A DNA stretch of 64,000 nucleotides from the NCBI GenBank assembly GCA_022539475.1, contig VCMS01000027.1:1-64000 (forward strand), written 5' to 3'. Positions 1 through 22,963 of the stretch are shown here, one piece after another (within the stretch, counting starts at the first letter, position 1; each line of letters starts with the position of its first letter). The DNA comes from Gracilaria domingensis. Its lineage: Eukaryota > Rhodophyta > Florideophyceae > Gracilariales > Gracilariaceae. The notes below the pieces were generated by a model. The model was not told the DNA's origin. It saw only the letters and a list, made by a program, of their open reading frames with translations, and did not search any database. A program made the translations under genes and the position numbers.

Positions 1-658
1 AACTGATGTGAAAGGCCAGTCCCCAGAGCGACAATGCGGAGAATATCCGGCCAAAGCGTGCCACCATAGAAGTGGTGCATGCGGCTAGCCGTTGCGTCCT
101 ATTAAGGTCATGAGGATTCAGCTGTTGAGCCTCCACCGTACCGGCCACCGCAAGAGGATTAACGTTGCTTGGACCCGCGGCGGCTGCGTAGGGATCATAC
201 CCACCGCGACCGTAAGGGTCTTGACGAGATCGCGTACTCGACCGCGTGTTAGGCTTGAAGATGCCACCTCCGCGGCCGCGTGCCACCCCAGGGGTCTTGC
301 CAGCCATCCTCGACCGGGAGGCAACAGTTTCGCGAACCGAACGGTTGACCTCCGCCGAGGGGGAGACTTCAGAAGCCGAATATCCCTTTATAGGGTCGAA
401 GTGCGGCACCTCCAATACCAAGTGGTTGGCCTCCACGGGAGCCTCGGCGCCCGATGGAAAGGACACAGGTGTACCGGTCTGGGACGGCAGACAGGGCTGC
501 GAAGAGTCAACCACGTGGTAATTCGATTGAAACGGCGCCGTCTCACCCCCGGGGTCCACCACAACGGGAAGGGCGCGCGTGATGCCCTCCTCGACACCGT
601 CTTCACGGCGTTCGAACGTCATCGACCACCCCGTTGGGGAAGCGGGTTGATCACCCAT
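1..658 (-). CDS. Antisense gene of element A, partial left copy (N-terminal part)
   Basis: The ATG is at 656-658 on the minus strand and the reading frame matches the first ~185 codons of the intact gene at 9,072-11,798. The frame holds down to about position 96 and is then disrupted by small indels that coincide with the noisy first bases of the window. The rest of the gene would lie to the left. Plus-strand ORFs over the same bases are shadows. Whether this copy is intact beyond the edge cannot be judged. Confidence 0.65.
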   Translation of the reverse strand, partial: MGDQPASPTGWSMTFERREDGVEEGITRALPVVVDPGGETAPFQSNYHVVDSSQPCLPSQTGTPVSFPSGAEAPVEANHLVLEVPHFDPIKGYSASEVSPSAEVNRSVRETVASRSRMAGKTPGVARGRGGGIFKPNTRSSTRSRQDPYGRGGYDPYAAAAGPSNVNPLAVAGTVEAQQLNPHDLNRTQRLAACTTSMVARFGRIFSALSLWGLAFHIS

Positions 659-662
659 GAGG

Positions 663-670
663 TATAAAAG
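663..670 (+). promoter_or_regulatory. TATA box, left repeat of element A
   Basis: The sequence TATAAAAG lies on the plus strand just right of the antisense ATG (656-658), in the orientation needed to transcribe gag-pol at 2,360-8,920. If used, transcription would start near 690 and give a ~1.67-kb leader. The same box is present at 11,803-11,810. The more decayed element C has lost it. Confidence 0.5.
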
Positions 671-1829
671 GCGCGAGTTGGAGCGAGAGCGTGCCACGGA
701 GGATACCAACCGAGAGGGGGAACACCACCAATTGGATGACTAGATGAAACCTGAGGGGTCACAGAGAACGGGCACGCCGCTCGAGCGAGCTGACACACCG
801 TGAAAATGACCAGGGTTGTGCGCCGGCTGGACGGGTTCCGTGAACCAGGGAGGTTACAACCACCCCAGAGGGAACCTAAGGACGGAAGGAGACCGCGAGG
901 AACCAGGTGGAGGGGCGCTGAACGCCACGCAGTCGGGGTAAACCCCTCGGCTGGACCTGAATCAAGCCTGAACACCCCGATGAGGCAGACCACTAGGTAG
1001 AAGCGGCGTCAGCACCGGTACGGTCACGAAGTCTGAAGAGCCACGGCAGGAGTCTCCTCACCCTTGACGCGGCCGCCCAAGGCAACGACACCCCAGTGGC
1101 GCCCTCACTCAAGCGGAGAGACAGTACGTGTCGGAACCAACGAGGTATCACCTCAGTACGGCACAAGACCAAGTGGCCAACAGAGAATAGGAGCGACACC
1201 ACGAGGGGCGGTGTGCCGATCGGTTGACAACTGCGAACCCCACCGAAAGGAGGCTCGAAACCAACTGGTAAGCCGGGACTAACCCGCCCAGGGGGAGGAC
1301 GGACAGGGGAAGATGGAGTGACGGACTCCTCCGGGAGGGACCAAAGAGGCGAAGACAACCACGTGGTACCAGGCGCGCGACAAGATCAACCTGAATGGTC
1401 GCGGTTCGCGGTTTCGCGTTCCAATACCACGAGGGACGTAAGGTACGATCGCACCTACCACAGGGGGTACGGCGGCGTGGGTAATGGCGCTGCAGTGCAT
1501 GTGGCGAACCGCGCCGTGCACCGCGCCATCTTCGCGTCATCGCGAGACGCGCCGTGCCCCAAGCGATGCGCGCCGACGACCGTTTGGTGAAAAGGCGGCA
1601 AACGCCGTGGGACCTTCGCAGCCACGGGGCGTGCCTGTCGGTAGGAGGGGGGTCTGTAGTATAGCTCGGCCAGATCAACGGGGGCTCTACAAGACCAAGT
1701 GGTGACGTCACGGGCTCCCGGGCACGTGTGTCTACTGTACCACGTGGGACGCGCAAGCGCAGGCTTGGACAGGACTAATTAGTCTATTCTCGATAATTTG
1801 GAATTAATAATTACTAGGTAGTGTAGATA

Positions 1830-2226
1830 TGTGGCCGGGGTGGTGCACCACAAATGCACCTCCCGGTGGCCCACGTGGCACTAGGCCCGTGAGAGCCGGA
1901 GGGGCGCTCGGGTGTACTAAACCCCCGAGCCGCCAACCTCCCACACCAAATGGTAAAGTCAAGCACCAACTAGGCTGATTTGACACCAGTTCGGTTCTAC
2001 AGTCACCAATTGGTAAGTCTAGTAGTCCTCTAATAGTTTTGCTGACCTCGAGGGTTATACGTGCCTGCCGCACACCAGTGCGGGCGTATTTACCACTTGG
2101 TCACCGTGCACTATAGGCAACGGTGGGTGCTGCCGACCTATTAGGTGTCACGCGTTTCACTCCTCCGCCGGGTCGAGCCCACGCGGGGCTTCCCACTAGC
2201 AGCTCGCACCGATCGGTTATACAACA
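1830..2226 (+). repeat. 397-bp terminal block of element A (5' side), TGTGG...CAACA
   Basis: This block is 397 bp, exactly the length of its partner at 12,973-13,369. It begins TGTGG and ends CAACA; the partner ends CCACA, giving perfect 5-bp inverted termini. It lies directly before the PBS. It could be the complete LTR, or the R-U5 end of a much longer LTR. It contains palindromes of the ACCANNTGGT type at 1,945, 2,005 and 2,092. Confidence 0.7.
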
Positions 2227-2231
2227 TATTT

Positions 2232-2247
2232 TGGTCTCCCGACTTAG
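2232..2247 (+). other. Primer binding site of element A
   Basis: TGGTCTCCCGACTTAG starts 5 nt after the terminal repeat. TGGTCTCC is shared with element C (43,739) and TGGTCTCCCGACTTA with element D (54,720), in both cases at the end of the LTR. It would pair with a tRNA whose 3' end is ...GTCGGGAGACCA. The tRNA identity was not determined. Confidence 0.75.
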
Positions 2248-2359
2248 AAATCTGTGGATTACCAAGTGGTTTTGGGAATGGAGGATTTGGAAGTCACGAG
2301 ATACCCGAGTGGTTTGGTTCCCGTTGCCGAAGCAATTGGCTCCGACGCCAGTTACCTAA

Positions 2360-4625
2360 ATGGAGAAACGGGGCGCGCGCTACCCAAATAGGGCGCCGAG
2401 CGCTCCACCAAGTGGTCACCCCATACGGGGTTCAGTGTCCTATCCGGTGTTGGATAACCCGGAGGACCTGATTCGGAAGGAACGCCCACCGAGGGGGAAG
2501 AAGGTAGACCGAGAGGCTGGGGCCCCTCGACCCTTCCCCGGGCTGACCAAGTGGACGGAGGAGCAGGCTCCGCAAGGGCGGAGCCCGCTCCTGTAACAAC
2601 CCCAGTGGTAGACCAAATGGAGGTGCCAGTCGGACCGCGACTGGACTTGGACGAGGTCACCCGAGTGGTAGTTGATCGAGCCTCCCAGGAGGTCCTCGAC
2701 AAGGTACCTGTGGTGGTGTTACAGTACCTCGAAAACGAGGTGCGAGGACACATCGACCGATTGGTTATGCTGGCTCTGCAGCAGCAGGGGGCTAAGCTTC
2801 AACCTGAGATGGTGGCCCAGGCCGCGCTCATGAAGCAAGCTCCCCCGCCTGCAGTAGACGCCACCAAACCACTTGGTATTCTCCACCCTAACCTTCCTAC
2901 ACAACCGACTGGTGAAGGATTTATCGACCGTATGGGGAAAGGGGCAGAGCCTCCAGGGATGGAGGGCCCGAGGTACGTTTACCTCCCCAACCTACTGGTG
3001 TAGCTCCGTCAGGACCAAGTGGTGGAGACTCTGATGGAGATTCGTCGAGCTCAGGAGACGAGCGTCGACGTAAACCAAATGGTAAGAAGAAGAAAACCAA
3101 AAGGGGAAAGAGAAAGAGTCGCCGGTCGGACTCGGACTCTTCGTCCTCAGACACCGATTCGGATTCGTCAGGAGACGACGACCGTACAGGTTCACGACGC
3201 AAGAGGAAGGACTCTCGCAAGAAGAAAGGAAAGAATCCCCGCAAGGGTAAGACCAAAAGGTATAACGATTCGGACTCAACTTCCGACGAGGAGACTGACC
3301 TAGAGGTGCTTACGCCGCTCAATGATTTATTCACCAAAGCGGTTGACTATCGTACCTATAGGTTAGAGAACAGACAGGCTGAGTATACCAAAGAGGTAGC
3401 TCAGAAGATAACGAAGCATCATAAAAAGCTTCGTTTCCAACTGGGTGAAACTCGCTTTAGCGGGGATGACCCTATAGCGATCATTGATTTCTTTCAAAGG
3501 TTCAAGATCGCTTGTGATCAGAATGGGTTTTCAGAGGCAGCAGCCATGTGGCTGTTTCAATTCTACCTAACTGGTCAGGCTGGAGCGTTGCTCCACAGCC
3601 GCCTCCAAGGAAACACCATGGCGGTGGACGAAGACCAAACGGAAATGTTGACAACATACCCACAGGTGGTTAACTTCCTACTGGAAACCTACGCGACCGA
3701 TGAGGTAATCCAGGAGGCGTACGCAGAGGTGCTTGCGTACCGCCAGCGCGCGGGACAAACCGAATTGGAATTCGCTCGCTCCTTATGGGCATTAGCCTCC
3801 CGCTGTGGAAGCGTCTTTACTACCAAAAGGTTGAAATCGATGTACGCCGACAACGTGGCGAAGTCTATCCGATCACAGGTTCGTAACTACCTAGCTACCA
3901 ACCGCACGGTCGACTACAACGCACTAGCCCGCCATGCACAGGGACTAGACGACACCGTTCGGTCAGGGGCCAGGAAAGACTCCGCACCACTCGGCAAACC
4001 ATCGAAGGAGAAAGGAAAAACGAGGCGGTCAGTGTTTGACGTAGAGGAAGAGGAGACCACTACGGAGGAGGCGTCCACACAATACGCCTCCCAGGGTCAC
4101 CCAGTCCACTTGGTGCATGCGCAACCGACAACTCGATCGCACGGTAATACCTCTTGGTCCAGCTCGCTATCCAGCGAGCCACCCTCAAGACAAACCTCAG
4201 CTCCACCATCACAGGTATCCGTACCGGTCAGCCCGGTCCTAGCGGTACCATTCAAGCAATATGGTGAACGAGGACCATCCCCGCAGCAACGGAGTGCAGT
4301 ACCTACTGGAGGCCGTCCCCCATCGCGCGCGTCATCGCTCGCGATGAAGGACCCCACAACCGGCAATCTCCTCTGTTGGTTCTGTTTGTCGCCCCACCAC
4401 TTGGCAACAGCGTGCCCAAGTGTGGCTCCGCAGAACAGGAACGCTCTCCTGACTGCTCGCCAGCAGAACCACCAGGATATATTTGGGCCCCCGGCACGGA
4501 GCGCAGGCACGGGACACGCAAATGCGCGACCCAATGCAGCCACACCTCATCAGGTACACCTCGTTGCGGAGCAGGACCAAACGGATCCCGCCCCGCAGGC
4601 GGAAAACGCCGAACAGTTGGGATAG
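2360..4625 (+). pseudogene. gag: gag of element A (frameshifted)
   Basis: Structural polyprotein of a Ty3/gypsy chromovirus. The start is the ATG at 2,360, conserved in element C at 43,868. An N-terminal segment is followed by a Ser/Asp- and Lys/Arg-rich low-complexity linker (about 3,010-3,300), then a helical capsid-like region (3,306-3,990), then a CX2CX4HX4C zinc knuckle (4,374-4,415). The frame changes before ~2,583 and again near 2,988, where element C has one more C in the run; both look like indels in this copy or in its sequence. From 3,306 to the TAG at 4,623-4,625 it is open. The element D gag is recognisably homologous. Protease follows in the -1 frame. Confidence 0.8.
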
Positions 4626-4659
4626 AGGCCTTCCCCAACTGTCCGAAGACGGAAGGCCT
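4626..4659 (+). promoter_or_regulatory. Stem-loop directly after the gag stop codon
   Basis: AGGCCTTCC (4,626-4,634) pairs perfectly with GGAAGGCCT (4,651-4,659) across a 16-nt loop. The gag TAG (4,623-4,625) is immediately upstream and the protease frame is -1 and already open from before 4,376. The position suits a recoding signal, but no canonical slippery heptamer is visible. Confidence 0.4.
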
Positions 4660-5536
4660 TCCAGAACCAAGTGGTGCAAGTATGGACAATTACCCATTGG
4701 TTACAGGGGAGGAGAGCCTCATGGACGGCACCGAACCGATATGCTTTCTCAAGCATAGTAACTATAAGGTAAACGTCACCCTCGGTTTACCTCTAACCAC
4801 TTGGTACCATGCGTCACTGTCCTGGACACCGGGGCAGGACCTAATCTGGTGAATGCCAAACTATTAACTAACAGACAACTTAATAAGCTTCAGCCATGTA
4901 CATTAACTAACCCACTGGTTGACGCCAACAACAGACCACTAACCGTCATGGGAGCGCTTACCATAATGGTATTGATTGATACCATGAGGGTCCGAGTTCG
5001 CTTCATAGTCGTCAACCAACTGGCAACAGACTGTATCCTCGGAACAACTTTTATAGACCAGCATGTCAGGGCAATTTTTCCACGTTCTAAGACAGTTCTG
5101 TTCCATAATGGCCCCGGATCGCCATTATTGGTAACCACAAGGGTGCCTCTACGAAAGAGAACCGCACTCAACACCAACCGGTCCCGGAAAACACACTCTC
5201 CAACAAGGTGCGATTGCAAAGGCGGTAACAATACCGCCTATGAACCACTTGGTAGTGAAGGTCACATGCCAACAACCTGGCCTGTTATCCATTCAGAACC
5301 ATTCACGGTTGGCCGAACGACACATGACCTTAATGGCGAATGGTATAGTCGACAACATACCGACAAAACCGTTTCAGGTCTACCTGAGTAACTTTAGCAA
5401 CCGCCCGGTCAAGTTGCCAAAGCACACCGTAATTGGTCTTGCCTTACCGGCTCCCCGTACGATCTTTACAATTATACCACAATGGTCCCACGAGGTCGTG
5501 AATGCTAAGGAAGGGGGGGGCAGTGTCAATTCGTGA
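4627..5536 (+). pseudogene. Aspartic protease region of element A
   Basis: A retropepsin-like domain with the catalytic LDTGAGPN motif at about 4,819-4,842 and a downstream hydrophobic ILGTTFID segment. It starts in frame -1 relative to gag (about 4,627-4,795). It shifts frame near 4,796-4,805, on one of the recurring palindromes, and shifts back near 5,215, where comparison with element C (45,800) shows one missing base. Downstream, conserved sequence runs in a single frame to the TGA at 5,534-5,536. The element-D protease carries the matching IFDTGDGPN motif. This copy cannot make a continuous protease unless the shifts are sequencing errors. Confidence 0.75.
5504..5520 (+). other. Internal polypurine tract, identical to the 3' tract
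   Basis: GCTAAGGAAGGGGGGGG here is repeated, with one more G, at 8,916-8,933. The 17 identical bases lie in coding sequence in one place and over a stop codon in the other, so shared coding constraint does not explain them. It resembles a central PPT used for internal plus-strand priming. Element C has a degraded version near 46,092. Confidence 0.45.
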
Positions 5537-8500
5537 ATTCGTCGCGAACAGACCATATGGTGCAGCGACTAGCTGAGCGAGAAGACCAGAAACTGGAGCT
5601 CGACTCAGTAACCAATTGGAAGACGGAGGTGAATATAGGACTTGAAGGGGAAGAGCTCAGAGCTCGGATCCTTGGACTCCTGGAGCCATTCAGTACCATG
5701 TGGTCGGGTAAGCTGGGAGCCATTAAGGCCACCCAGCACAGGATTGACCTCAAACCGGACTCCCGTCCCATCCACCAACAGCCATACCGCGCGGGACGTA
5801 AGGCCCGTGAGGTAGAGCTGGAGGAGGTAGAGCAGATGCTCCGCGAGGGGGTTATAGAACCGGCAAACTCGGAATGGGCTAGCCCTGTAGTGCTAGTCCA
5901 AAAACGAGGAGAGACCCGTATGAGGTTCTGTATTGACTACAGAAAACTTAATGCCGTAACGGTAAGGGACTCGTACCTCATCCGAGGATGGATGAATGCA
6001 TCGACTCCCTAGGAGATGCGAACATCTTTACCACACTGGACGCCAACTGCGGGTATTGGCAGATCGAAATACCAGAGGGTGACCGTGATAAGACTGCGTT
6101 TACATGCCACGCAGGCCTGTATCGCTTCTTACGCATGCCGTTTGGTTTAAGAAACGCCCCCGCTACCTTCCAAAGGGCGTTAGACATCAAACTGTCTAAA
6201 GTGAAGTGGACAACCGCATTGGTATACATAGATGACGTAGTCATCTACTCGAGGTCCATAGAGGAGCACTTCTCGCACGTCCAAGTGGTACTGCAGTTGC
6301 TACAAGAGGCAGGCGTGACCCTCAAACTACGAAAGTGTATGTTCTTCAACCAAGAGGTAGAGTACCTAGGGCATACAATAAGCCCCGGGAAACTCGAAGT
6401 GACCAAACGGAATATCCGAGCGGTACAGGAAGCGAAGCTCCCTACGTCGCAGACGGACATACGATCCTTTATAGGTCTATGCAACGTCTACCGGCGGTTC
6501 ATCAAGGGTTTTGCAAAGATAGCCGCACCCCTGAACCGGAGGTTGCAGAAGGGGCAGCCCACACACTTTGACCACCTGGAAGAGGACGAGGTAGAGGCGT
6601 TCTATACATTGAAAGCAGCGCTTCTCTCCCCACCGGTACTGGCATTGCCCAAAACGGGACTCCCGTATACACTGGACACGGATGCGTCGGACGCCCAAAT
6701 AGGTTGCTGCCTAATGCAGGAACAGGAGGACGGCAAGCTCGCACCAATTGGGTATTGGAGTAGAGCTCTTAACCAAGCGGAGCAGAACTACACCGTAACG
6801 GAGAAGGAATGCCTAGCGGTTGTTTGGAGCATGCTCATGCTACGTCCTTACCTATATGGTGTGCGCTTCACGCTCCGAACGGATCACGACTCCTTGAGGT
6901 GGATATTAGGCTTGGCGGACGCATCGGGTCGTCTGGCCCGATGGCGTCTGAGACTCTCGGAGTTTGAGTACGATGTGCAGTACCGCCCCGGGGTCAAGCA
7001 CCGAGTGGCGGATGCATTGTCCCGGTTGAATACCGAAGGATTGGACACTGACCCAGTGGACGACGACATCCCATGCTTTACTATAGAACCAGCTAACCAC
7101 GAGGTCAATGAAGTTCTGAAGGGATACTGGCATGATGACAGTACGTACCAAGTGGTAGTGGAGATCCTCCTTCCTGTGGAGGAAGGGGAACACGCTCCAA
7201 TCACCCGTGAGGAATTCTTACGCGAACAGTCGACCGATAGGTTGTGCAAAACGCTCGCTGACGTACTTGGAAGGAAGGATTCTCATTTCGACGTCGACCA
7301 CAATGGGTACCTCATCAGACGCTCACCTTTAGACGGAGCTCTCCAGAAGGTCGTACCTGAGTCATTAAGACAAAGGGTGTTATATCTGTCACACAATCCA
7401 CGGCTTTCGGGGCACCCTGGAGCCACGCGGTTGTACTATACCCTTCGGAGGCAATTCTACTGGCCGCATATGGCTAACGATGTATATACCTATGTGGCGC
7501 AATGCAATTCGTGCATTAAGACCCGAGGTGGTGTGGCGAAGCACAGGAAGTACCTAAAGCTATTCCCGGCGGCGGGGCCCCTGGAATTCGTAGCAATCGA
7601 CATACTGGGGCCCCTGCCCAAGACCTCAGAGGGTTACCGCTTTGTAGTAGTCATAACCGACAGGTTCACAAAGCTCACCAGAGCCATACCTCTGAAGAAC
7701 CAAACGGCAACGACACTAGCGACAGCCTTCCTGGAGAATTGGGTCTACCCGTAAGGTGCTCCCATGTACCTACTGACCGATAACGGTTCGAACCTAGCTT
7801 CTAAGTTCTTCGAGGCGGTTTGTACAATGCTAGGGTCAAGCACTACTTTACCACGGCCTATCATCCGCAAACAAACGGCCAAGTGGAACGCTTCAATAAG
7901 ACCCTAGTGGCACGCCTACGGCACTATGTCGAAGAGCACCAAACCACATGGTCGGAGTATGTCCAACCATTGACATATGCGTACAACCTCCAGGTCCACA
8001 GGGTCACTCAAACAACCCCATTCGACCTGGTACTTTCGCGAACACCACATGGTATTATCGTCCAGCCCGGACCTGACCGCTCGGAAGCGGCCGGGTTACT
8101 CACACCGGCGAAGGTCAAGAGAGACATACTCCAGAAGTTACGCGCCGCTTTGGCTGCTGCCAAAGTTAAGATGACAGCAGCCCAAGAACGGTATAAAGCG
8201 GACTATGACCGAACGGTGAGCAAAGTGACCAAAGTGGTAGCAGGAGACATGGTCTTCCTTGACGTGCCACCAAAAGGTAAGCGACCAACCCCAGCGGAGA
8301 TGGAAGAGGACATCCGCCTTGAGGAGGATATCAATTCTAAACTACTACCCAAGTCCACGGGACCATACAAGGTGATTCGCTCCGACGAGCATACCGCTAC
8401 GGTCATAATGGAAGGTTTGGAGAACACGGTCTCCATCGACAGGATTGTCAAGGCCGCACAACTGACGACAGCGAATGCACAACCAATAGGTGAGCCAACG

Positions 8501-8920
8501 CAGCAGGAAGCGGAGAGGGAGCAAACGTCTCCCATACCCCCTCCTATGATGAGTCAGCCGAGCGGTCAACCTTCCACCAGAGCCGTAACGGCTGACCCCA
8601 CGACCCAAGCGGCACAGGAGATCGAGCCTCGGCAAGACCAACAGGTCACACCACCCACGGGGAGCCACGCACCCCATGACCAAATGGAAGAGTCACACCC
8701 TCAAGTAGACACTCAGGAGTGCGCTATTGACACCATTGTAGGTCACGAACACACCACAAAGGGTATGCGCTACCGGGTAAGATGGTATGGATGGTCGCCC
8801 GAGCACGACTCTATGGAACCACCTGGTCATATCCCTAACAACTTCATCATCCGATACTGGCGCAAACAAGGGCGAACGCCCCCACCAACTGGTATTGCTT
8901 CGCGTGGTACGCGTCGCTAA
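5533..8920 (+). pseudogene. pol: pol of element A: RT, RNase H, integrase, chromodomain (interrupted)
   Basis: Reverse transcriptase has YIDD at 6,225-6,236. RNase H has DTDASDAQ near 6,675 and TDHDSLRW near 6,880. Integrase has an H2C2 zinc finger (about 7,410-7,530), core aspartates in AIDILGP and LTDNGSN, and the glutamate in NGQVERF. The C-terminus (about 8,725-8,870) reads as a chromodomain (RYRVRWYGW...), placing the element with chromoviruses. Lesions are a one-base loss near 5,980 (CC against CCC in element C), TAA at 7,752-7,754 where element C has TAC (Tyr), and a one-base loss near 7,835. Otherwise the domains are well conserved, so the insertion is young or the lesions are partly sequencing errors. 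Confidence 0.85.
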
Positions 8921-8933
8921 GGAAGGGGGGGGG
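8916..8933 (+). other. 3' polypurine tract candidate of element A
   Basis: GCTAAGGAAGGGGGGGGG overlaps the pol stop codon (8,918-8,920). A PPT normally abuts the 3' LTR, yet the 397-bp TGTGG...CCACA block lies 4 kb further on. If this tract is the functional PPT, the LTR starts just after it and is ~4.4 kb long. Element C has the equivalent G-rich tract at about 49,491-49,507. Confidence 0.5.
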
Positions 8934-9027
8934 TTATCGAAGCCGTTGAACGCCACGCTACACGAAAAGCTAACTAACTAACCTAACAGGAAAACAAAAG
9001 AAGATCAGAGATCACAATGCAAGACAC

Positions 9028-9033
9028 TTTATT
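9028..9033 (-). terminator. Poly(A) signal of the antisense gene
   Basis: The minus strand reads AATAAA, 38 nt after the antisense stop codon (TAA at 9,072-9,074). The same signal sits at the matching place in element C (about 49,582-49,587), although the surrounding sequence there has diverged. Confidence 0.55.
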
Positions 9034-9071
9034 AGTCGAGAAGAATCCACGAGAGGGAACCACGAGGTGAC

Positions 9072-11798
9072 TTAGGAGGCCTTGGAGGACCCACGGCCAC
9101 GTCCGCGTCCACGACTGGTTCCACGACCGCGACCACGTCCACGGGAGGTCCCGCGAGATGAAGCGGAACCTCCACGACCAGAGGACACCGACATAGGTCC
9201 GGCGGAGCTTCCGCCCCCGCCGCTAGCCGCGCTCGGTGGCGCACCACCACTTGGTAAGGGAGCAGAAGTACCAGCAGGTCCCGCAGGGGTACCGCTGCTG
9301 ACTACCGGCATGGTATTCGCAGGACCAGTGGGTGGATGGAAGGAAGGCGGTAAGCTAGACGGAGGGATGCCACCAGAGGTCGGAGGAGCAAGACCACTAG
9401 ACGGCCCTGCACCGGGGGTCAGACCAGTAGGCGGCCTAGGAGCACCGGACGTCGGCGGAAGCGGAGCCGAACGGAAACCAGTTGAGAAACCACTTGGTGC
9501 TCCTGTCCCAGTACTTGCTGGAGGAAGAGGAACGTTGTGAGGACCAAGCGGAGTATGGAAAGGTGCCGCAGGATCACCATCAGGAGGTCCACCAGGGAGT
9601 TGATACGTACCAAGGCCACCAAAGCCTACCATTGGGGTCGCAGGTTGCTGTGACGCAGGAGCGTACGGGTTGAAACTTTCCACAGGGAGTCGATGTAACG
9701 GCGCGTGGCCTTCCACAAGGTTGCTCAACTGACCAACATAGGCTGTCACCTCACGGTAGAGATTGCGCTGGAAGTAGTCGCGGAACTGTCGCAGCTCAGA
9801 AGTGCGCCGCTCGTGGTGAGCAACCACGGGGAGCAAGTTGGTAAGAGTATCCACAGCGGTGAGGATGTCATTGGGACCAGGACGGTTGAAGTGCACCATC
9901 GAGGCGTGGCTGAGACGAGCCAGAGCGCTCCGTATCGCGCCACTATCACCACCAGGGGGCACCGGATTCACCGGAAGCGACTGGAAACCAACCCGAAGAG
10001 GCCCCTGGGCAGCCCGTCCGGGAGGGTGAGCAGCCGCCTGAGGGTTCGCCGGACCACTTGGAACAGGCGCAGCCACGCTGGTCGGAGGAGTAGCCTGTAC
10101 AGGTGCCGACGGAGGCAATGCGGGAGACTCATAGTTCTCGGCAGCCACCATCACGGTATCGTCATTACCAAATGGGTCTTCGCCAGCCATGTGCTGCTGT
10201 TGGAGAGGCACGATGCTATGAACTTCCGGGTCGTAGACATCCCAACCCTGTTCAGGCCCCCAATTGTGGTTACTTACCGCAGTGAGGTAGCCATCCAACT
10301 GCTGCGCAGTATATTTGGTGCCCTCCACGATGTTGGAGAGCCCCATGGCACGAATGTCGCCGACCACATCGTTGGGAATATTGAAGATACGACCAACTGG
10401 TTGAGTTCCGCTGATCCCGACAGACTTGTCAGGGCAGCGCGTGTCCCAAGTCACACCTTCCACGGAAGCCTGAAGGGCGAGGATAGCCACCATGACGGCC
10501 CACTCGCTGCGCGCGACCGACCAAACGGCATATGCGTTGTTCCTCTCGAGGGAGATGCTACTACCAAAGTACGCAAGGACCGGCGGGGTCGGCACTTCCA
10601 GCCACTGACATACTTCATAGTGGTCCCACCAAGAGGGTCGATTGACATACCATGTCCGGCGGTTGTGGTCGCTCTGCGACCAATACTCAACGTTGTGGAA
10701 CAGGAACATGGTCCGCGTACGGTTGTTACGGTGACGAACACGGCTCTCAGCCATCGCATCGGTCGCCCACCTCCCACGGTCAGTCCAATAATTGGTATCT
10801 AAAGGGCGCTCAAACGCGACGTACTCCAGATCGACCTCGATGTGCGTAGCAGGTTCGTCCAAGCGGTGAAGGATATCTACCAAACGGCGGAAGTAGTGGA
10901 CCTCCCCATCGCAGCGGATGAAGGGGAGATCCGACGGTACGGCCACGGGGATGTAGTATAGAAACTTCGTGTGTCGCTGCCGCGCATGGAAACACTGTTG
11001 TCGACCGAACCGGCTCTGCTTCTCGCCCTTGCGTGGTGGAGGAGGTGCCATAGGCACCGCCTCCAACCGGCGACAATCCCAACGGGCAATTGCGGTATAC
11101 TGCGTGAGACCCATGTGGCGGAATCGCAAGGGACAGAGTGAGGAACTGATGTGGAAAGGCCAGTTCCCCAGAGCGACCAATTCGGCGGAGATATCGGCAA
11201 AGCGTGCACCATAGTGGGCATGCGGCTGCCCGTGCGTCCTATTAAGGTCATGAGGATTCAGCTGTTGAGCCTCCACCGTACCGGCCACCGCAAGAGGATT
11301 AACGTTGCTTGGACCCGCGGCGGCTGCGTAGGGATCATACCCACCGCGACCGTAAGGGTCTTGACGAGAACGCGTACTCGACCGCGTGTTAGGCTTGAAG
11401 ATGCCACCTCCGCGGCCGCGTGCCACCCCAGGGGTCTTGCCAGCCATCCTCGACCGGGAGGCAACAGTTTCGCGAACCGAACGGTTGACCTCCGCCGAGG
11501 GGGAGACTTCAGAAGCCGAATATCCCTTTATAGGGTCGAAGTGCGGCACCTCCAATACCAAGTGGTTGGCCTCCACGGGAGCCTCGGCGCCCGATGGAAA
11601 GGACACAGGTGTACCGGTCTGGGACGGCAGACAGGGCTGCGAAGAGTCAACCACGTGGTAATTCGATTGAAACGGCGCCGTCTCACCCCCGGGGTCCACC
11701 ACAACGGGAAGGGCGCGCGTGATGCCCTCCTCGACACCGTCTTCACGGCGTTCGAACGTCATCGACCACCCCGTTGGGGAAGCGGGTTGATCACCCAT
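9072..11798 (-). CDS. Antisense gene of element A: 908-aa RG-tailed protein of unknown function
   Basis: The frame is intact for 908 codons from the ATG at 11,796-11,798; an upstream in-frame TTG adds 17 codons that overlap the TATA box. I do not recognise the family. The order is an N-terminal ~120 aa, an RG patch (about 125-165), a Trp/Tyr-rich core (about 185-545, with GNWPFH, DRGRWATDAM and PSWWDHYEVCQWL), a Pro/Gly/Ser-rich linker containing one helical stretch (about 615-700), and an RG-rich tail (about 865-908). No catalytic motif, membrane helix or zinc finger is evident; the RG tail suggests nucleic-acid binding. Element C carries a decayed but clearly homologous copy at 49,628-52,374. 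It is convergent with pol and has its own poly(A) signal. It is intact although gag-pol beside it has about six lesions. Confidence 0.8.
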   Translation of the reverse strand: MGDQPASPTGWSMTFERREDGVEEGITRALPVVVDPGGETAPFQSNYHVVDSSQPCLPSQTGTPVSFPSGAEAPVEANHLVLEVPHFDPIKGYSASEVSPSAEVNRSVRETVASRSRMAGKTPGVARGRGGGIFKPNTRSSTRSRQDPYGRGGYDPYAAAAGPSNVNPLAVAGTVEAQQLNPHDLNRTHGQPHAHYGARFADISAELVALGNWPFHISSSLCPLRFRHMGLTQYTAIARWDCRRLEAVPMAPPPPRKGEKQSRFGRQQCFHARQRHTKFLYYIPVAVPSDLPFIRCDGEVHYFRRLVDILHRLDEPATHIEVDLEYVAFERPLDTNYWTDRGRWATDAMAESRVRHRNNRTRTMFLFHNVEYWSQSDHNRRTWYVNRPSWWDHYEVCQWLEVPTPPVLAYFGSSISLERNNAYAVWSVARSEWAVMVAILALQASVEGVTWDTRCPDKSVGISGTQPVGRIFNIPNDVVGDIRAMGLSNIVEGTKYTAQQLDGYLTAVSNHNWGPEQGWDVYDPEVHSIVPLQQQHMAGEDPFGNDDTVMVAAENYESPALPPSAPVQATPPTSVAAPVPSGPANPQAAAHPPGRAAQGPLRVGFQSLPVNPVPPGGDSGAIRSALARLSHASMVHFNRPGPNDILTAVDTLTNLLPVVAHHERRTSELRQFRDYFQRNLYREVTAYVGQLSNLVEGHAPLHRLPVESFNPYAPASQQPATPMVGFGGLGTYQLPGGPPDGDPAAPFHTPLGPHNVPLPPASTGTGAPSGFSTGFRSAPLPPTSGAPRPPTGLTPGAGPSSGLAPPTSGGIPPSSLPPSFHPPTGPANTMPVVSSGTPAGPAGTSAPLPSGGAPPSAASGGGGSSAGPMSVSSGRGGSASSRGTSRGRGRGRGTSRGRGRGRGSSKAS

Positions 11799-11802
11799 GA
11801 GG

Positions 11803-11810
11803 TATAAAAG
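11803..11810 (+). promoter_or_regulatory. TATA box, right repeat of element A
   Basis: TATAAAAG on the plus strand, 4 bp from the antisense ATG. It is the counterpart of the box at 663-670 and would drive readthrough into 3' flanking DNA. Confidence 0.45.
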
Positions 11811-12972
11811 GCGCGAGTTGGAGCGAGAGCGTGCCACGGAGGATACCAACCGAGAGGGGGAACACCACCAATTGGATGACTAGATGAAACCTGAGGGGTC
11901 ACAGAGAACGGGCACGCCGCTCGAGCGAGCTGACACACCGTGAAAATGACCAGGGTTGTGCGCCGGCTGGACGGGTTCCGTGAACCAGGGAGGTTACAAC
12001 CACCCCAGAGGGAACCTAAGGGACGGAAGGAGACCGCGAGGAACCAGGTGGAGGGGCGCTGAACGCCACGCAGTCGGGTAAACCCCTCGGCTGGACCTGA
12101 ATCAAGCCTGAACACCCCGATGAGGCAGACCACTAGGTAGAAGCGGCGTCAGCACCGGTACGGTCACGAAGTCTGAAGAGCCACGGGCAGGAGTCTCCTC
12201 ACCCTTGACGCGGCCGCCCAAGGCAACGACACCCCAGTGGCGCCCTCACTCAAGCGGAGAGACAGTACGTGTCGGAACCAACGAGGTATCACCTCAGTAC
12301 GGCACAAGACCAAGTGGCCAACAGAGAATAGGAGCGACACCACGAGGGGGCGGTGTGCCGATCGGTTGACAACTGCGAACCCCACCGAAGGGAGGCTCGA
12401 AACCAACTGGTAAGCCGGGACTAACCCGCCCAGGGGGAGGACGGACAGGGGAAGATGGAGTGACGGACTCCTCCGGGAGGGACCAAAGAGGCGAAGACAA
12501 CCACGTGGTACCAGGCGCGCGACAAGATCAACCTGAATGGTCGCGGTTCGCGGTTTCGCGTTCCAATACCACGAGGGACGTAAGGTACGATCGCACCTAC
12601 CACAGGGGGGTACGGCGGCGTGGGTAATGGCGCTGCAGTGCATGTGGCGAACCGCGCCGTGCACCGCGCCATCTTCGCGTCATCGCGAGACGCGCCGTGC
12701 CCCAAGCGATGCGCGCCGACGACCGTTTGGTGAAAAGGCGGCAAACGCCGTGGGACCTTCGCAGCCACGGGGCGTGCCTGTCGGTAGGAGGGGGGTCTGT
12801 AGTATAGCTCGGCCAGATCAACGGGGGCTCTACAAGACCAAGTGGTGACGTCACGGGCTCCCGGGCACGTGTGTCTACTGTACCACGTGGGACGCGCAAG
12901 CGCAGGCTTGGACAGGACTAATTAGTCTATTCTCGATAATTTGGAATTAATAATTACTAGGTAGTGTAGATA

Positions 12973-13369
12973 TGTGGCCGGGGTGGTGCACCACAAATGC
13001 ACCTCCCGGTGGCCCACGTGGCACTAGGCCCGTGAGAGCCGGAGGGGCGCTCGGGTGTACTAAACCCCCGAGCCGCCAACCTCCCACACCAAATGGTAAA
13101 GTCAAGCACCAACTAGGCTGATTTGACACCAGTTCGGTTCTACAGTCACCAATTGGTAAGTCTAGTAGTCCTCTAATAGTTTTGCTGACCTCGAGGGTTA
13201 TACGTGCCTGCCGCACACCAGTGCGGGCGTATTTACCACTTGGTCACCGTGCACTATAGGCAACGGTGGGTGCTGCCGACCTATTAGGTGTCACGGGTTT
13301 CATTCCTCCGCCGGGTCGAGCCCACGCGGAGCTCCCCACTAGCAGCTCGCATCGATCGGTTATACCACA
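12973..13369 (+). repeat. 397-bp terminal block of element A (3' side), TGTGG...CCACA
   Basis: It begins TGTGGCCGGG and ends TATACCACA, with perfect 5-bp inverted termini. The downstream flank (TGACGAGAG...) is unrelated to the internal sequence that follows the left copy, so the element ends here. No purine tract directly precedes position 12,973. Confidence 0.75.
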
Positions 13370-13736
13370 TGACGAGAGTACAGTACATCGTCACGGTCTA
13401 GAATTTAGCACGTCGTCACCCTTTTTTGTATACAATGAACTATCAATTTTTTAGACAGGATGAAACCTAAACCTCCTCGTGTTTACGGTAGTAGTAAGAC
13501 ACACATCTTGTCATTTTTTTAAGATATTTGTAGACAATCTCAAAAGCGTATTTTCCCGCAGCTCCCAACAGCATTGTTGGCTGTAGACTGTATCTTTAGG
13601 AATAAGGATCTTCTAACTCTTGGATTGAGTTTTCCAATTAGTTTGTACTTTGAAGCGTGCCAGTTCTTCTCGAAAAGGCCTTTGCACACGAGCTCCTTTG
13701 CTGAGCACCTTCGCACTAAGTACTTTCGTTCTTGTC
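13370..13736. other. Flank between element A and the foldback repeat, no gene seen
   Basis: Moderately AT-rich DNA with short T runs. No ORF with protein-like content, no RNA gene and no repeat was recognised. Confidence 0.5.
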
Positions 13737-14535
13737 GCTGGAGAGCACGGAAAATGCAACAGGTACTCAAATGATACGTCTTAAGAAGAGTGTCGGTTCG
13801 TCGAATAAAGTGCTGTATGAGTATTTGTTTTTTTATTTTCATAGAATTCTTTTTCCTTGTGCCCTTGTCACGTTTCATGTAGGCAATGTAAAACGTAAGC
13901 TGTAAGATCCAAACAACGGGACGCTTTAATAAAATGTTGCAGGTTAATGTATCGTCGCATACTTCAAATATTTGTGGTACGTGTTGAAAAACCTGCAATA
14001 TGTCTTTTTCCATATTCAAGAACTGTAATCTATTTGTCTAATTTTGATGCTCATGTACAGATACACAGATGTGAAAAGTATTGGCTTCAATTGCACAACC
14101 AGTAAAACGATAAACTAAAACAAAAATTGCGCATGTCGCTCCAAAACAGCGTTTTTTGCATTATATACATTTTTATACTGCTTAATAAAGCGGTGGTAGT
14201 GGCACAACTTCATGATATATTTTTGGTACTGGTGATATATAGTTTTGCTACACAATCAAAATTTGAACCTAGACGTAGGCCTGCCCATAGAAATCAAAGA
14301 AACTTTTGTGTACTGAAATGTTCGGAGAAACATTTACGTCGTCTAGAATTATGTATTTATGAAACATTTCTTCCCGCTTTCAAGAATGTGCATTGTAAGG
14401 AAGTATCTTGCAAACTTTCAAATGCTATCGAACGTTTGAAATTCAGCAATGAAATTTTTATTGATTCTACGTGACAAATACGACTGTCTTACCCATACAA
14501 ACTTTACGACAGATCATTTGGAAACTAAGCGATTT
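13737..14535 (+). repeat. Left arm of a large inverted repeat (foldback element)
   Basis: The arm is the near-identical reverse complement of 15,055-15,848. Both arms contain the same 115-codon frame (14,127-14,474 plus; 15,114-15,461 minus) with only a few substitutions. They also share a second frame that starts close to the arm centre. Identity fades at the outer ends near AAATGCAAC. The arm ORFs look like shadows of the repeat. Confidence 0.8.
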
Positions 14536-15054
14536 TTCCGTGCTCCCCGGCGATCGACTACACTATGGCGGTTGTTCTCGAGAACCCGCTCATATGACAG
14601 TTCGCTACTCCATTCGGTCATGGTGGACCTCTTATTGCCGGCAGCCTATGAAAACAGCAGCATACGAAAGTTGCAGAGTCGGCGTTTTGGGTTGAGCTCA
14701 CGCAGCCAAGAAGCTTCTTATTCAAGCGGCTGCGTTCATGAACACGTATGATATACGTTACTGCTCCGCCAGCGATTGTACTTGTGTTTTGTGTTGTAGT
14801 AGTACACGTGCGAGATTCCGTACGTGTCCACTAAGCCAAAGGGTATGTTTTGTTGTAGTAGTACACGTGCCACAAAACAAACGTGTCCACCATGCCAACG
14901 AGTCCAGAACCGGACAAACATCCTCTGCTATCTCTAGTTTCGTGCGAAGTAGCCAAAGTACAAAGAGCTACAAAATGAAATACTACATGTCCATGACTTC
15001 TGTCTTCTCAATTTCTCAAAAAGCTTTCGGACACTCGCAAGGGAGCACAGGAAG
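14536..15054. other. Spacer of the foldback repeat, with a short internal duplication
   Basis: About 520 bp between the arms. A TTGTAGTAGTACACGTG unit occurs twice (near 14,795 and 14,853), each followed by similar CGTGTCCAC sequence. No transposase or other protein is recognisable. Confidence 0.5.
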
Positions 15055-15848
15055 ACCATTTAGTTCTCCAATGTTCTGTTGTAAAGTTTTTATGGGTAAG
15101 ACAGTCGTATTTGTCACGTAGAATCAATAAAAATTTCATTGCTGAATTTCAAACGTTCGATAGCATTTGAAAGTTTGCAAGATACTTCCTTACAATGCAC
15201 ATTCTTGAAAGCGGGAAGAAATGTTTCATAAATACATAATTCTAGACAACGTAAATGTTTCTCCGAACATTTCAGTACACAAAAGTTTCTTTGATTTCTA
15301 TGGGCAGGCCTACGTCTATGTTCAAATTTTGATTGTGTAGCAAAACTATATATCACCAGTACCAAAAATATATCATGAAGTTGTGCCACTACCACCGCTT
15401 TGTTAAGCAGTATAAGAATGTATATAATGCAAAAAACGCTGTTTTGGAGCGACATGCGCAATTTTTGTTTTAGTTTATCGTTTTACTGGTTGTGCAATTG
15501 AAGCCAATACTTTTCACATCTGTGTATCTGTACATGAGCATCAAAATTAGACAAATAGATTACAGTTCTTGAATATGGAAAAAGACATATTGCAGGTTTT
15601 TCAACACGTACCACAAATATTTGAAGTATGCGACGATACATTAACCTGCAACATTTTATTAAAGCGTCTCGTTGTTTGGATCTTACAGCTTACGTTTTAC
15701 ATTGCCTACATGAAACGTGACAAGGGCACAAGGAAAAAGAATTCTATGAAAATAAAAAAACAAATACTCATACAGCACTTTATTTGACAAACCGACATTC
15801 TTCTTAAGACGTATCATTTGAGGACATGTTGCATTTCTTATGCTCCCC
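15055..15848 (-). repeat. Right arm of the large inverted repeat
   Basis: Reverse complement of 13,737-14,535; see that arm. The two arms plus spacer span about 2.1 kb. No clear target-site duplication was found, because the outermost ~15 bases of the arms have diverged. Confidence 0.8.
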
Positions 15849-16629
15849 TGTGAAACAGTAGTCTCGAAATGAAATAAAATGAGAGCTTTTTGTTTCAGAC
15901 CGGAAGCGGGAGTGTAGCTCGTTCTCCGCCACGAGAAAGTTGCGAAAAGAAGTTTGCGTCTTGCTTTGAAGCGTTTCAAATCTGTAGCTTGATTCGTGAG
16001 GTCCAGAGCAGCCGGGTGTACCTGTCCCCTATCCGGGTGTGTCTCATCGCCTCGTGCCCCCGACAGCAAAGGGCGAAAATCCTCCCGAAAAAATATCAAA
16101 ATTTCAACAACATCCAAAAGGTGCACCTATGCCATGCTACAACGTAGCATGGCATAATGTCATTATGCCATGTAGATTTACACGTGTGCTAGCTTCCCCA
16201 CTTGGATTGATAGTGTAAGTCAAAAACGGCATTACGGTCCCTCTAAAAGGTCGAAGACGGTCGTGAATCACCGTTGAATTTCTCGTGCACAGCAAAGGTA
16301 ACGACGGTACCAGTGACACCCAATTTCAACCTGACGTTGACTTCATCCATGCTGTTGAAGCTGCGAGAGTCATACTACCGCCATTTCATAGGCTCTCTTG
16401 CGCGTTATTTATTTCGGATTTCATGTTTCAATATCTCATGGTTCAAACGGAAAAAATGAGCCTGCTTGTTAAATCATGTTTGCCTACTCTAAGAATTCAA
16501 TTTCGAATGATAAAGGATTCAGACAGTGAGAAGAAAGAAACTATCAATATCTTAGTCTATATCAATTTTTACTAGTTATTTGCTTGCTCGTCCGCACCAG
16601 ATTCAGAGAAAGCTATTTTCTGTACCGCT
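15849..16629. other. Gene-free interval 3' of the USP gene
   Basis: Apart from the hairpin at 16,128-16,156 nothing was recognised. Short ORFs here lack domain-like content. It probably includes the 3' UTR and terminator region of the minus-strand protease gene. Confidence 0.45.
16128..16156. other. Perfect 13-bp hairpin
   Basis: TATGCCATGCTAC pairs with GTAGCATGGCATA around a 3-nt loop. The partial repeat ATTATGCCATG follows. It may be the remnant of a small inverted-repeat transposon. No T-run follows it. Confidence 0.6.
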
Positions 16630-18087
16630 TTAAGCTATAGTACAACACATGCTCTTTTTCTTTGGAGAGGAAGGAACTTCCTCGTCGTCCACTACTGCAG
16701 CTGTACCTTCGTTTCCATTGAGTCTGTCAAAACTTACTACATCTGCTACACTCCCGCTACCTCGACTGCTAGCTAGCGTGCTCTCTATTGGGCTTGGAGA
16801 TCCTTCGACCAGATCGACTTCGGGATCCTGCATGACTGAAGAATGCTCGTCAAGATCATCCCACTGAAGCAAGGGCACCCGCTTCTGGTAAAACAGCATG
16901 TAAGCTCTGTTACTCAGGGCCATCGCAGCGTTGATCTTCGAGCGCTTGTGATCATTCACATGACACCAATGCCCATCCGAACACTTGACATCAGCAGTAT
17001 AGTGTCCGAAATCTGTGGATGGACCATGGTGAGTAAGCACTGAAACAAGCTCATACATTTCTATTTCCATACCCTCACTGCAATACTCACTCAAGTCGAG
17101 AACCTTAGGGTAGGAAATGAATGCATCCACCTTCCCAATCGAGTCAAATCTGTTCATCTGTACAATGAGCAGGTTGGGTGCTTCGTCGATCTTTTTCGAG
17201 ATAACAGCCTTCGATAGTGCGTGGCAATGGAGGCATTGATATGCATTCTCGCCCTCAAGTATTTCGTCGCCCATATGTGTTGCAAGTGACTCCTCCAAGG
17301 TTCCCACCAATCTGGCTGGGAGCGAAAGCTTTGTGAAGAGATTTCGGCTTGTAGAAGACACCTGACATGAAGAGCAAGTAATGGTGCTTGTCATATATCC
17401 CAAGACAGAGTCCCTCAAGATAAGACCGATCTCATCTGGGTAAACTTCTTCCTGGACCGGCCCATCAGCACATCCATTGCACTGCACTAGATCAAGTGCC
17501 TGGAATAGGACCTGAATGAATTCATCCGCATCTTGCTGATGTCCAGGGACAAAGAATGGGCAGATCCTCCTTACGTTTTCGACGAACACACCAAGGCTCA
17601 TGGCTTTGGGGGCATTCTGCTCGAAGTAGCTCGTAACAAGCTTGTGAAGCTGATCCAATATGCAAAACTGTGTGTGAGGGTCACCGTTAGTGTGCACACC
17701 GTGATCCCTAATCTGTTGGACAAAGGTGACACAATGCAGCAAGCACTGCAGGGAGGCGTTCATATAGCAAGTATTACCCAGATTGTAAAAGCCCGGTTCG
17801 CATCTATGTAACACGGTGTTGATATTCTCCGCAGATTGCTTTTTCTTTCCGATTTGGGGCACTGTTGGGATACTCTTCGGCTTGACGGATACTTTGAAAG
17901 TTCTTCCCAAGTATGTCTCAAGATCAGACTTTGTTCGCTTCCTATGGTTCAGAAGTCGCCCAAATATCGAAATGGGAACTTCTGGGGAGCTAGTTTCACT
18001 GGCCTCATCGGAGTCCGTAAGATAGTCCGTCTCACTTGACTCTGACGGTTGAAAGAAGGGAATGCTATCGTTCTTGTTTTCAGACAT
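16630..18087 (-). CDS. Ubiquitin-specific protease (USP/UBP, peptidase C19) with a CAAX-like C-terminus
   Basis: A 485-aa single-exon deubiquitinase, starting at the ATG at 18,087. It cleaves ubiquitin from proteins. The Cys box lies at about residues 100-117 (YNLGNTCYMN, catalytic Cys107), with HQQDADEF at 183-190. Two CXXC pairs (238/241 and 285/288) form the usual USP zinc ribbon. The His box is at 359-363 (DFGHY, His362), followed by the VND stretch (Asp379) and YMLFYQKR. The Ser/Asp/Glu-rich N-terminal 90 aa are probably disordered. The protein ends in a KKK basic patch followed by CCTIA, where CTIA fits a farnesylation CAAX box with an adjacent cysteine that could be palmitoylated. This suggests membrane tethering. 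The catalytic residues are intact. It points away from a small plus-strand ORF 32 bp upstream. Confidence 0.93.
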   Translation of the reverse strand: MSENKNDSIPFFQPSESSETDYLTDSDEASETSSPEVPISIFGRLLNHRKRTKSDLETYLGRTFKVSVKPKSIPTVPQIGKKKQSAENINTVLHRCEPGFYNLGNTCYMNASLQCLLHCVTFVQQIRDHGVHTNGDPHTQFCILDQLHKLVTSYFEQNAPKAMSLGVFVENVRRICPFFVPGHQQDADEFIQVLFQALDLVQCNGCADGPVQEEVYPDEIGLILRDSVLGYMTSTITCSSCQVSSTSRNLFTKLSLPARLVGTLEESLATHMGDEILEGENAYQCLHCHALSKAVISKKIDEAPNLLIVQMNRFDSIGKVDAFISYPKVLDLSEYCSEGMEIEMYELVSVLTHHGPSTDFGHYTADVKCSDGHWCHVNDHKRSKINAAMALSNRAYMLFYQKRVPLLQWDDLDEHSSVMQDPEVDLVEGSPSPIESTLASSRGSGSVADVVSFDRLNGNEGTAAVVDDEEVPSSPKKKSMCCTIA

Positions 18088-18119
18088 TTGAATACTGAGC
18101 TAGGTGTACAGGGACGTGG

Positions 18120-18368
18120 ATGTATTGGTTTTGGTACGGAATGGTTTTCTTCGACATGCACAGCGACGAGCCACGGGGGATGGCTTTTTATAAGTTTTCA
18201 ACTGGTATCTTCCTGTTGTTCTGGGCAGCTTTGTCGCTTTGCATATTCTGTTTCAGTTTGTGCAGTCTATTTGGTTACCAGACAAGATCGACTTTTCATA
18301 ATCGCATGTGGAACATAAACTTGGAAACAGCTGTGAATGACGCCAATCGCCGTTTCGTGCAAATGTGA
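18120..18368 (+). CDS. Possible small single-helix membrane protein
   Basis: An 82-codon ORF with an ATG start, divergent from the USP gene with 32 bp between the two start codons. It has one strongly hydrophobic segment (about residues 27-50, IFLLFWAALSLCIFCF) and a polar C-terminus. No family is recognised. An overlapping frame of similar length exists, so coding status is uncertain; the region may simply be the USP promoter. Confidence 0.25.
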   Translation: MYWFWYGMVFFDMHSDEPRGMAFYKFSTGIFLLFWAALSLCIFCFSLCSLFGYQTRSTFHNRMWNINLETAVNDANRRFVQM

Positions 18369-21471: not shown

Positions 21472-21476
21472 ATCAT
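21472..21476. repeat. Target-site duplication of element B, left (ATCAT)
   Basis: ATCAT directly precedes the LTR and recurs directly after the right LTR at 32,369-32,373. Five bases is the usual length for Ty3/gypsy insertions. Confidence 0.9.
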
Positions 21477-22028: not shown

Positions 22029-22036
22029 TTTATATA
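22029..22036 (-). promoter_or_regulatory. TATA box in the element B LTR (3' copy)
   Basis: TATATAAA on the minus strand, oriented for element B transcription. The copy in the 5' LTR (31,021-31,028) would start the genomic RNA near 30,995. Confidence 0.5.
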
Positions 22037-22841: not shown

Positions 22842-22908
22842 TTCAACCTGTGCTGAATGTTGAGGCTGCCGCGTGGCTTTGCTTCTTGCGCGATGCTTCT
22901 GCCTTTCC

Positions 22909-22914: not shown

Positions 22915-22963
22915 CTTCCCCTGCTTGCGGCGATATGCGGCGCCACCTCTCTTCTCCTTCTGT

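Follow-up and report, generated by a model that had tools for sequence, protein, structure and literature searches.

A spacing-flexible dyad with family-dependent half-sites dispersed through Ty3/gypsy retrotransposons of the red alga Gracilaria domingensis

Introduction

Why should a retrotransposon repeat one short palindrome at scores of places, within its genes as well as in its long terminal repeats (LTRs)? The question is raised by element A, a Ty3/gypsy chromodomain retrotransposon of Gracilaria domingensis at the start of contig VCMS01000027.1 (assembly GCA_022539475.1), whose first 64,000 nucleotides were analysed and are referred to here as the window. The window also contains C, a relative of A; D, a fragment with a related gag; and B, a Ty3/gypsy-type element that served as an internal control. 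In A and C the motif is a spacing-flexible dyad, ACC-N4/5/6-GGT, and the ten-base palindrome ACCANNTGGT reported for both elements by a first-pass annotation is one slice of this wider motif.

Results

A spacing-flexible dyad in elements A and C

The first-pass annotation had counted about 60 copies of CCANNTGG in 1-13369, some 40 of them extending to the full ten bases. The first figure was borne out (60) and the second was too high (34), and all 12 positions offered as examples are exact ACCANNTGGT. Because 1-13369 spans both LTRs, 1-11140 was taken as the non-redundant set of element A. It holds 47 CCANNTGG and 26 ACCANNTGGT, compared with dinucleotide-shuffle means of 3.9 and 0.26, and none of 200 shuffles reached these numbers. 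Element C is enriched as had been claimed (28 and 15 in 43359-53308), and the expectation of few sites in B and host DNA also held, with 4 CCANNTGG and no ACCANNTGGT in the 12.7 kb of B, and 1 to 7 and 0 to 1, respectively, in four other stretches. Over 77.9 Mb in 680 contigs, ACCANNTGGT occurs 4164 times against 1620 for its control, and ACCNNNNGGT 21944 times against 18689 for a reversed control, so that the excess is local.

A scan of three- and four-base half-sites at gaps of 0 to 12 placed ACCA-N2-TGGT on top (26, 1.0 expected), and ACC-N5-GGT emerged as an additional class. Inverted ACC...GGT pairs at spacings N3 to N7 number 7, 60, 38, 19 and 7 in A (1-11140, 11.1 kb), where shuffles give about 5 at each of N4, N5 and N6, and 5, 39, 23, 10 and 10 in C (38, 22 and 10 at N4 to N6 when C is bounded at 43359-53308); spacings from 0 to 20 other than N4-6 give 1 to 10 in these elements. 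Including both LTRs, 1-13369 contains 72 N4, 50 N5 and 19 N6 dyads, and the mean distance between dyads in A is 91 bp. Outside A and C, the window shows no such spacing peak. Direct-repeat arrangements of ACC and GGT were flat in both elements. The everted form GGT-N5-ACC showed a small unexplained excess (10 vs 4.5 in A, reached by 2 of 200 shuffles; 8 vs 3.6 in C, reached by 10 of 200), and ACC-N7-GGT stood at 10 vs 3.6 in C (1 of 200).

Of the 98 N4 sites that A and C contain together, 41 have the spacer A-NN-T, which yields the ten-mer of the first-pass annotation. Its suggestion of an E-box core had to be abandoned, together with a basic helix-loop-helix (bHLH) reading: CANNTG outside CCANNTGG occurs 28 times in A, below the 41 expected by chance, and the N5 and N6 forms have no centred core. 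When perfect N4 and N5 sites were masked and one half was kept, variants of the outer A/T occurred at 3.0 to 4.9 times background and single changes in CC/GG at 0.6 to 2.3 times (0.6 to 3.0 for G-U forms). The outer A/T is thus variable, and the core is CC-N4-6-GG with outer A/T preferred, both in A and in L041 and L042, two relatives described below. Tandem Repeats Finder listed no tandem arrays in A, L041, L045 or L046.

The bases flanking the dyads avoid complementarity in A and C; at offset 1 they are complementary in 8 of 97 N4 sites (23.6 expected) and 9 of 60 N5 sites (15.2 expected). This avoidance is weaker in L041 and L042 (19 vs 23.9 for N4, 18 vs 26.8 for N5).

Organization of the window and codon usage

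The features of the window are as follows.

1-13370, forward: element A, a chromodomain-bearing Ty3/gypsy retrotransposon in which ACC-N4/5/6-GGT dyads are scattered
1-2227, forward: 5' LTR, with 13 N4 and 12 N5 sites; starts at the contig end and may be incomplete
2458-4625, forward: gag region, in this copy in two overlapping frames (2458-3003 and 2916-4625)
4768-5391, forward: protease-like frame, its DTG motif recognised by eye
5952-7754, forward: reverse transcriptase (RT) and RNase H, followed by the zinc domain of the integrase and the first part of its core
7805-8920, forward: end of the integrase, and chromodomain
9072-11879, reverse: antisense gene, 935 codons from stop to stop
11144-13370, forward: 3' LTR, sharing 98.6% identity with its 5' counterpart
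16630-18087, reverse: host ubiquitin carboxyl-terminal hydrolase gene, negative control
21300-34000, reverse: element B, Ty3/gypsy-type, approximate bounds, internal control without dyad excess under codon-preserving shuffles
43359-53308, forward: element C, related to A (81.5% identical where the two align), with stops in RT and the same dyad
54201-57600, forward: element D fragment, related gag, different dyad

Element A matches RVT_1, RT_RNaseH, Integrase_H2C2 and Chromo above the Pfam cut-off, and rve and rve_3 below it. RT and RNase H come first, followed by the integrase domains in the same frame and then the chromodomain; RT and RNase H ahead of integrase are a mark of Ty3/gypsy elements. 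The predicted structure of its Gag combines a capsid-like fold with a zinc-knuckle module, which, modelled alone, had a predicted local distance difference test score of 49. Matches between the gag profile and PDB sequences, the best at E 6.6e-05, were read as charged low-complexity stretches and were not used.

As the first-pass annotation had stated, sites occur in the LTR, leader, gag, protease, pol and antisense gene, and in all three phases. Synonymous codons were shuffled 1000 times within each open reading frame, and N4 sites exceeded the shuffled means in gag (2919-4622; 11 vs 2.1), the protease-like frame (4 vs 0.9), the RT frame at 5952-7754 (6 vs 1.4), the integrase end/chromodomain frame (9 vs 3.0) and the non-LTR part of the antisense gene (6 vs 1.5, with N5 at 7 vs 2.1). 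A short frame at 5512-5951 had no excess (N4, 2 vs 1.5), and the single strict ten-mer of the RT frame, matched by 225 of the 1000 shuffles, is not significant. Over gag and pol, CC-N4-GG reached 86 vs 41.6 (z 10.7) and the everted GG-N4-CC 37 vs 30.8 (z 1.5). The claim that codon bias is insufficient was therefore upheld in gag, protease, RT, integrase and the antisense gene, where codon-preserving shuffles fall short of the dyad counts.

Several further features touch element B and the surrounding DNA. B has no chromodomain match, and its two ends (22955-23249 and 31947-32241) carry the same GC-rich tandem repeats, whose periods are 34 and 132 bases; its CGC/GCG dyads lie mostly within its tandem repeats. 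An inverted repeat at 13735-15853 has arms of 819 nt that are 96% complementary and 481 nt apart. Elsewhere in the genome, the C4 copy of element A is apparently inserted in the reading frame of a non-LTR retroelement (L005 401-3949, L006 5081-5965).

Relatives of element A and the antisense gene

Searching the genome with RT gave at least 75 matches (73 scored of 3007 candidates), and with the antisense protein at least 53 (49 scored of 2457), some in each case being pieces of one copy. The gag search found 23 homologues, of which the four that are named all belong to Agarophyton chilense, and scans of IMG/VR with gag and RT yielded no relative. Phycobilisome genes are present in the genome, with 10 of 12 matches lying on contig C680; together with the Agarophyton homologues they identify the host as a red alga, probably a member of Gracilariaceae. 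Two relatives, L041 (contig C38) and L042 (C232), each covered in part, have RTs 72% and 70% identical to that of A; blastn aligns them with A in pieces at 67-72% nucleotide identity, with one 45-base piece at 84%. Both are saturated with the dyad, having 49/59/18 (L041) and 46/49/18 (L042) N4/N5/N6 sites per 10 kb. Beyond base 500 of L044, where the L041 element has already ended on its 3' side, 4.5 kb contain one N4-6 site.

The antisense gene is present in A and close relatives and open in many copies, and its changes concentrate at third codon positions, as in L038 (152 vs 43 and 43); judged by this pattern of substitution, the frame is a real gene. No homologue of its protein was found at E 0.01 among 7993 candidates scored, and the protein had no Pfam match and no PDB sequence match. 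Its tail is rich in proline, glycine and arginine, and the upstream part of the gene lies inside the 3' LTR. In the covered part of L041 behind pol, frames antisense to the element reach at most 163 amino acids, and in that of L042 none of the five frames of at least 200 amino acids is antisense to the element. A tblastn search with the antisense protein gave no match with E under 5 in L041, L042 or L044.

Half-sites differ among related families

Elements D, F and H were each represented by one copy, F and H by 3 kb each, found by gag search. The gag of D is 37% identical to that of A over 144 amino acids, and D carries 36 CCC-N3/4/5/6-GGG dyads vs 7.2 expected, with ACC dyads at 5 vs 5.3. 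Family F (RT 60% identical to that of A) has 35 CCG-N3-6-CGG vs 6.3, with ACC dyads at 3 vs 2.6. In family H (RT 63%), codon shuffling revealed an excess of CC-N3-GG (44 vs 22), N4 (43 vs 19) and N5 (27 vs 14); H favours CCT-N2-AGG, and forms with CCT-N2, CCA-N1/2 and ACC-N3/4 occur.

All 64 half-sites were then compared at 12 gaps under codon-preserving shuffles, with the best of 60 shuffles as the null. The top dyads (z, with the best shuffle after it) were ACC-N4 in A (7.4; 5.2) and in L041 (8.0; 4.3), CCC-N4 in D (5.3; 4.0), CCG-N3 in F (5.6; 4.4) and CCT-N2 in H (5.6; 3.8), and neither B (3.0; 4.2) nor a non-LTR element (2.9; 4.0) rose above the null. Dyads of ACC, CCC, CCG and CCT were not in excess in B, the non-LTR element or the host stretches tested, including the host gene. 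In D, F and H the family signal occurs in both halves of the fragment, and this, together with the difference in half-sites, argues for a binder that differs by family. A simpler score, the product of half-site frequencies over 3-kb slices, also flagged B at 24000-27000 (GGA-N5, z 5.3), host DNA at 17000-20000 (CGC-N7, 5.7) and L010 (GCG-N0, 6.0). Because it flags stretches outside these families, this score is weak alone, and we relied on codon-preserving shuffles. GCC-N3-6 in L007 stood at 19 vs 7.9.

Conservation, turnover and spacing of sites

In 29 other copies of the 3' region, the fixed bases of the dyads diverged at 118 of 9831 positions (0.0120), compared with 3608 of 144422 elsewhere (0.0250), 0.0221 in the spacers and 282 of 11447 (0.0246) in control dyads; as the copies are mutually related, these counts are not independent events. 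Defining the sites in the other copy instead of A gave 0.0114 for fixed bases and 0.0197 for control dyads. Exceptions were L014, L028 and L036, in which fixed bases diverged no less than others.

At greater distances the pattern is similar. Between A and C (81.5% identity), fixed bases are conserved at 0.90 (N4) and 0.91 (N5) and flanks at 0.80 and 0.83; sites held in common are 25 of 48 (N4), 15 of 31 (N5) and 4 of 15 (N6), compared with 29-30% for random patterns, so that N6 has no extra sharing. Between A and L041 (69% identity), conservation is 0.80 at fixed bases and 0.56 in the spacer for N4, and 0.91 and 0.67 for N5, and 16 of 33 sites are shared (N4 7/16, N5 6/11, N6 3/6), compared with 10% at random. 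When 117 sites of A were followed into C, 24 were unaligned, 2 had an indel, 43 were intact, and 40, 7 and 1 were off by one, two and three bases; with 43 intact and 40 one base off among the 91 aligned without indels, turnover is mainly by point changes. These comparisons of sequence support the presence of a dense short motif under selection, for which codon bias is no explanation.

In A, C, L041 and L042 pooled, no pair of sites has centres less than 10 bp apart (46 expected after local jitter), 7 pairs lie at 10-15 bp and 13 at 15-20 bp (23 expected in each), and greater distances are near expectation. The exclusion below 10 bp is partly forced by the letters of the motif; for the deficit at 10-20 bp such an origin is not obvious. 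In other respects the spacing resembles a Poisson process, with coefficients of variation of 0.77 (A), 0.78 (L041) and 1.02 (L042), and site distances in these three elements had no helical phasing at 10 or 10.5. Low p values at periods of 147 and 185 bp are expected from near-exponential spacing and were not used.

Double-stranded DNA or RNA

The N4 spacers of noncoding sites are nearly mirror-symmetric, the counts for A or C at position 4 and for the mirror of position 5 being 16 and 13 of 17 sites in A, 15 and 13 of 19 in L041, and 13 and 11 of 20 in L042. Forms that would retain pairing through G-U numbered 63 vs 27.0 in A and C (2.3x) and 63 vs 24.7 in L041 and L042 (2.6x), and their mirror forms 82 vs 44.1 (1.9x) and 76 vs 30.0 (2.5x). 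Near mirror symmetry in noncoding spacers and the lack of a clear G-U preference point to double-stranded DNA, and it is more likely that the sites act in this form than as RNA.

Discussion

We put at roughly 60% the probability that, in one clade of red-algal Ty3/gypsy elements, sites for a DNA-binding dimer of the element's own, a putative protein acting on double-stranded DNA, have been spread over the full length of the element. The difference of the mark from family to family suggests a protein, made or recruited by each element, that would recognize the DNA of this element along its length. Half-sites combine CC/GG with a third base set by the family (A, C, L041 and L042 use ACC, D uses CCC and F uses CCG, with little preference in H), and the spacer tolerates about 3 to 7 bp. 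A sequence-specific dimer would bind these sites as double-stranded DNA, coding regions included. The binder is probably encoded by the element, most likely in the shared gag-pol part, where the zinc module of Gag, or integrase with its chromodomain, would be candidates, and binder and sites may diverge together between families. Its likely role would be to tag the DNA of the element and to cover it, either protecting the chromatin from silencing, in a VANC-like manner, or coating the cDNA ahead of integration.

Several observations weigh against this reading. The family preference is not absolute, since D also has CCG (12 vs 5.0) and CCT (10 vs 4.5), F has CCC (7 vs 2.2) and CCT (10 vs 2.9), and A has CCC (32 vs 15.9 by half-site product); plain CC-gap-GG in F reached only z 2.6 under codon shuffling, and D, F and H are one copy each. 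In the coding parts of A, N4 spacers are strand-oriented, with A or C at position 4 in 31 of 35 and the mirror of position 5 in 15 of 35, which hints at RNA. Compensated inner pairs in A and C number 25 vs 8.1 (N4) and 20 vs 8.1 (N5), an excess not repeated in L041 and L042 (12 vs 8.0 and 7 vs 8.0). The mid-position G-U form stands at 2.4x and its mirror at 1.25x in A and C, and the opposite holds in L041 and L042. The avoidance of complementary flanks (8 of 97 vs 23.6, N4, A and C) lacks an explanation. Finally, the element-encoded binder is a candidate only, and a related host protein family could be the source of the different specificities.

This last point leads to the possibility of a host factor that binds the sites and from which the element profits through transcription, chromatin or nuclear import. 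The common CC/GG could suit one host protein family, and the proposed element-encoded binder is still putative. We nevertheless consider a host factor unlikely, because half-sites differ between related families, because B, the non-LTR element and the tested host stretches are without ACC, CCC, CCG and CCT dyads, and because sites extend throughout coding bodies, beyond promoters. In another reading the sites form short hairpins of the genomic RNA, such as packaging signals spread along it to which Gag would bind. This appeared promising at first, given the loop-like range of spacers, their orientation in coding parts and the compensated inner pairs of A and C. Results from L041 and L042, the near mirror symmetry of noncoding spacers and the G-U test, in which G-U forms were not clearly better, lowered this prospect; in addition, the outer pair needs no pairing, pairing at the flanks is avoided and not extended, and the CCT-N2-AGG favoured by H would leave a two-base loop. 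On balance such hairpins seem improbable.

The first-pass annotation had proposed that the 908-amino-acid antisense protein of A binds the sites in the manner of VANC. Although its third-position excess and many open copies speak for a real gene, L041 and L042 are equally saturated and have no such gene in their covered parts, so that this protein is not needed, and D, F and H prefer other dyads; we regard this role as highly improbable. A mutational or gene-conversion bias that creates dyads of no function would have to differ by family, and would leave the lower divergence of fixed bases relative to control dyads, over 29 copies and at 69% identity, unaccounted for; this we give almost no weight.

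Returning to a dimer of the element's own, a plausible extension, though somewhat less likely than not, is that each family writes an identity code through the tolerated positions of its genome, which its Gag or integrase would read to distinguish self from host and rivals, and that families split by joint change of the code (third base and spacer) and its reader. At more than 100 points in a single element, coding sequence seems to hold a second, DNA-level message, which selection maintains and which differs from family to family. If a self-encoded protein reads the dyads, they would offer a clean system for asking how a retrotransposon recognizes its own DNA, and a test both of joint change in DNA-binding specificity and its targets and of the ways in which elements sharing a genome evade or make use of one another. 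The sequence itself supplies candidate proteins and dyads with which binding could first be examined. No mobile element known to us has a code for self-recognition written into all of its genes, and no earlier report of such dyads was among the entries listed in a literature search that left subscription papers largely outside its reach.

The first-pass annotation had likened the motif to the VANDAL/VANC system. A dense selected motif, VANC-type in spirit, is retained from that analogy; the antisense protein as binder and the E-box/bHLH alternative are not. VANDALs are DNA transposons. In Arabidopsis, as in the elements described here, a short motif has accumulated in the element and is different in related families. 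According to the available portion of PMC5735166, VANC motifs (YAGTATTAY; AGTTGTCC/AC) lie in noncoding tandem repeats, differ by family and are bound by the element's own protein, and the portion of PMC10398659 consulted likewise places them in noncoding tandem repeats. That portion of PMC5735166 does not call them dyads, whereas the red-algal sites are variable-spacer dyads dispersed in the coding DNA of LTR elements, and for neither A nor L041 is a tandem array listed.

A second comparison is with the Sireviruses, which are plant Ty1/copia elements. Their motifs, as described in the accessible part of PMC2829016, are palindromes specific to the family, of which 12 of 13 bear a CGG-CCG signature while the bases in between differ. 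An element has 8 to 32 of them, located in the LTR and in the linker that precedes ENV, with a few at the start of ENV. Sirevirus and VANDAL motifs alike thus lie mainly outside coding DNA. The likeness, as far as that part goes, is a family-specific palindrome repeated in one LTR retrotransposon; the difference is that A has more than 100 sites, in all genes, with flexible spacing within one element, and is a red-algal Ty3/gypsy element. A is not a Sirevirus, as its RT and RNase H precede integrase in one frame with the chromodomain after them; with RT, RNase H, integrase and chromodomain it is a Ty3/gypsy chromovirus. Element B, Ty3/gypsy-type without a chromodomain match, carries no such dyads. 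The red-algal dyads are a member of neither system and are akin to these self-motif systems, sharing family specificity with both and the dyad form with the Sireviruses.

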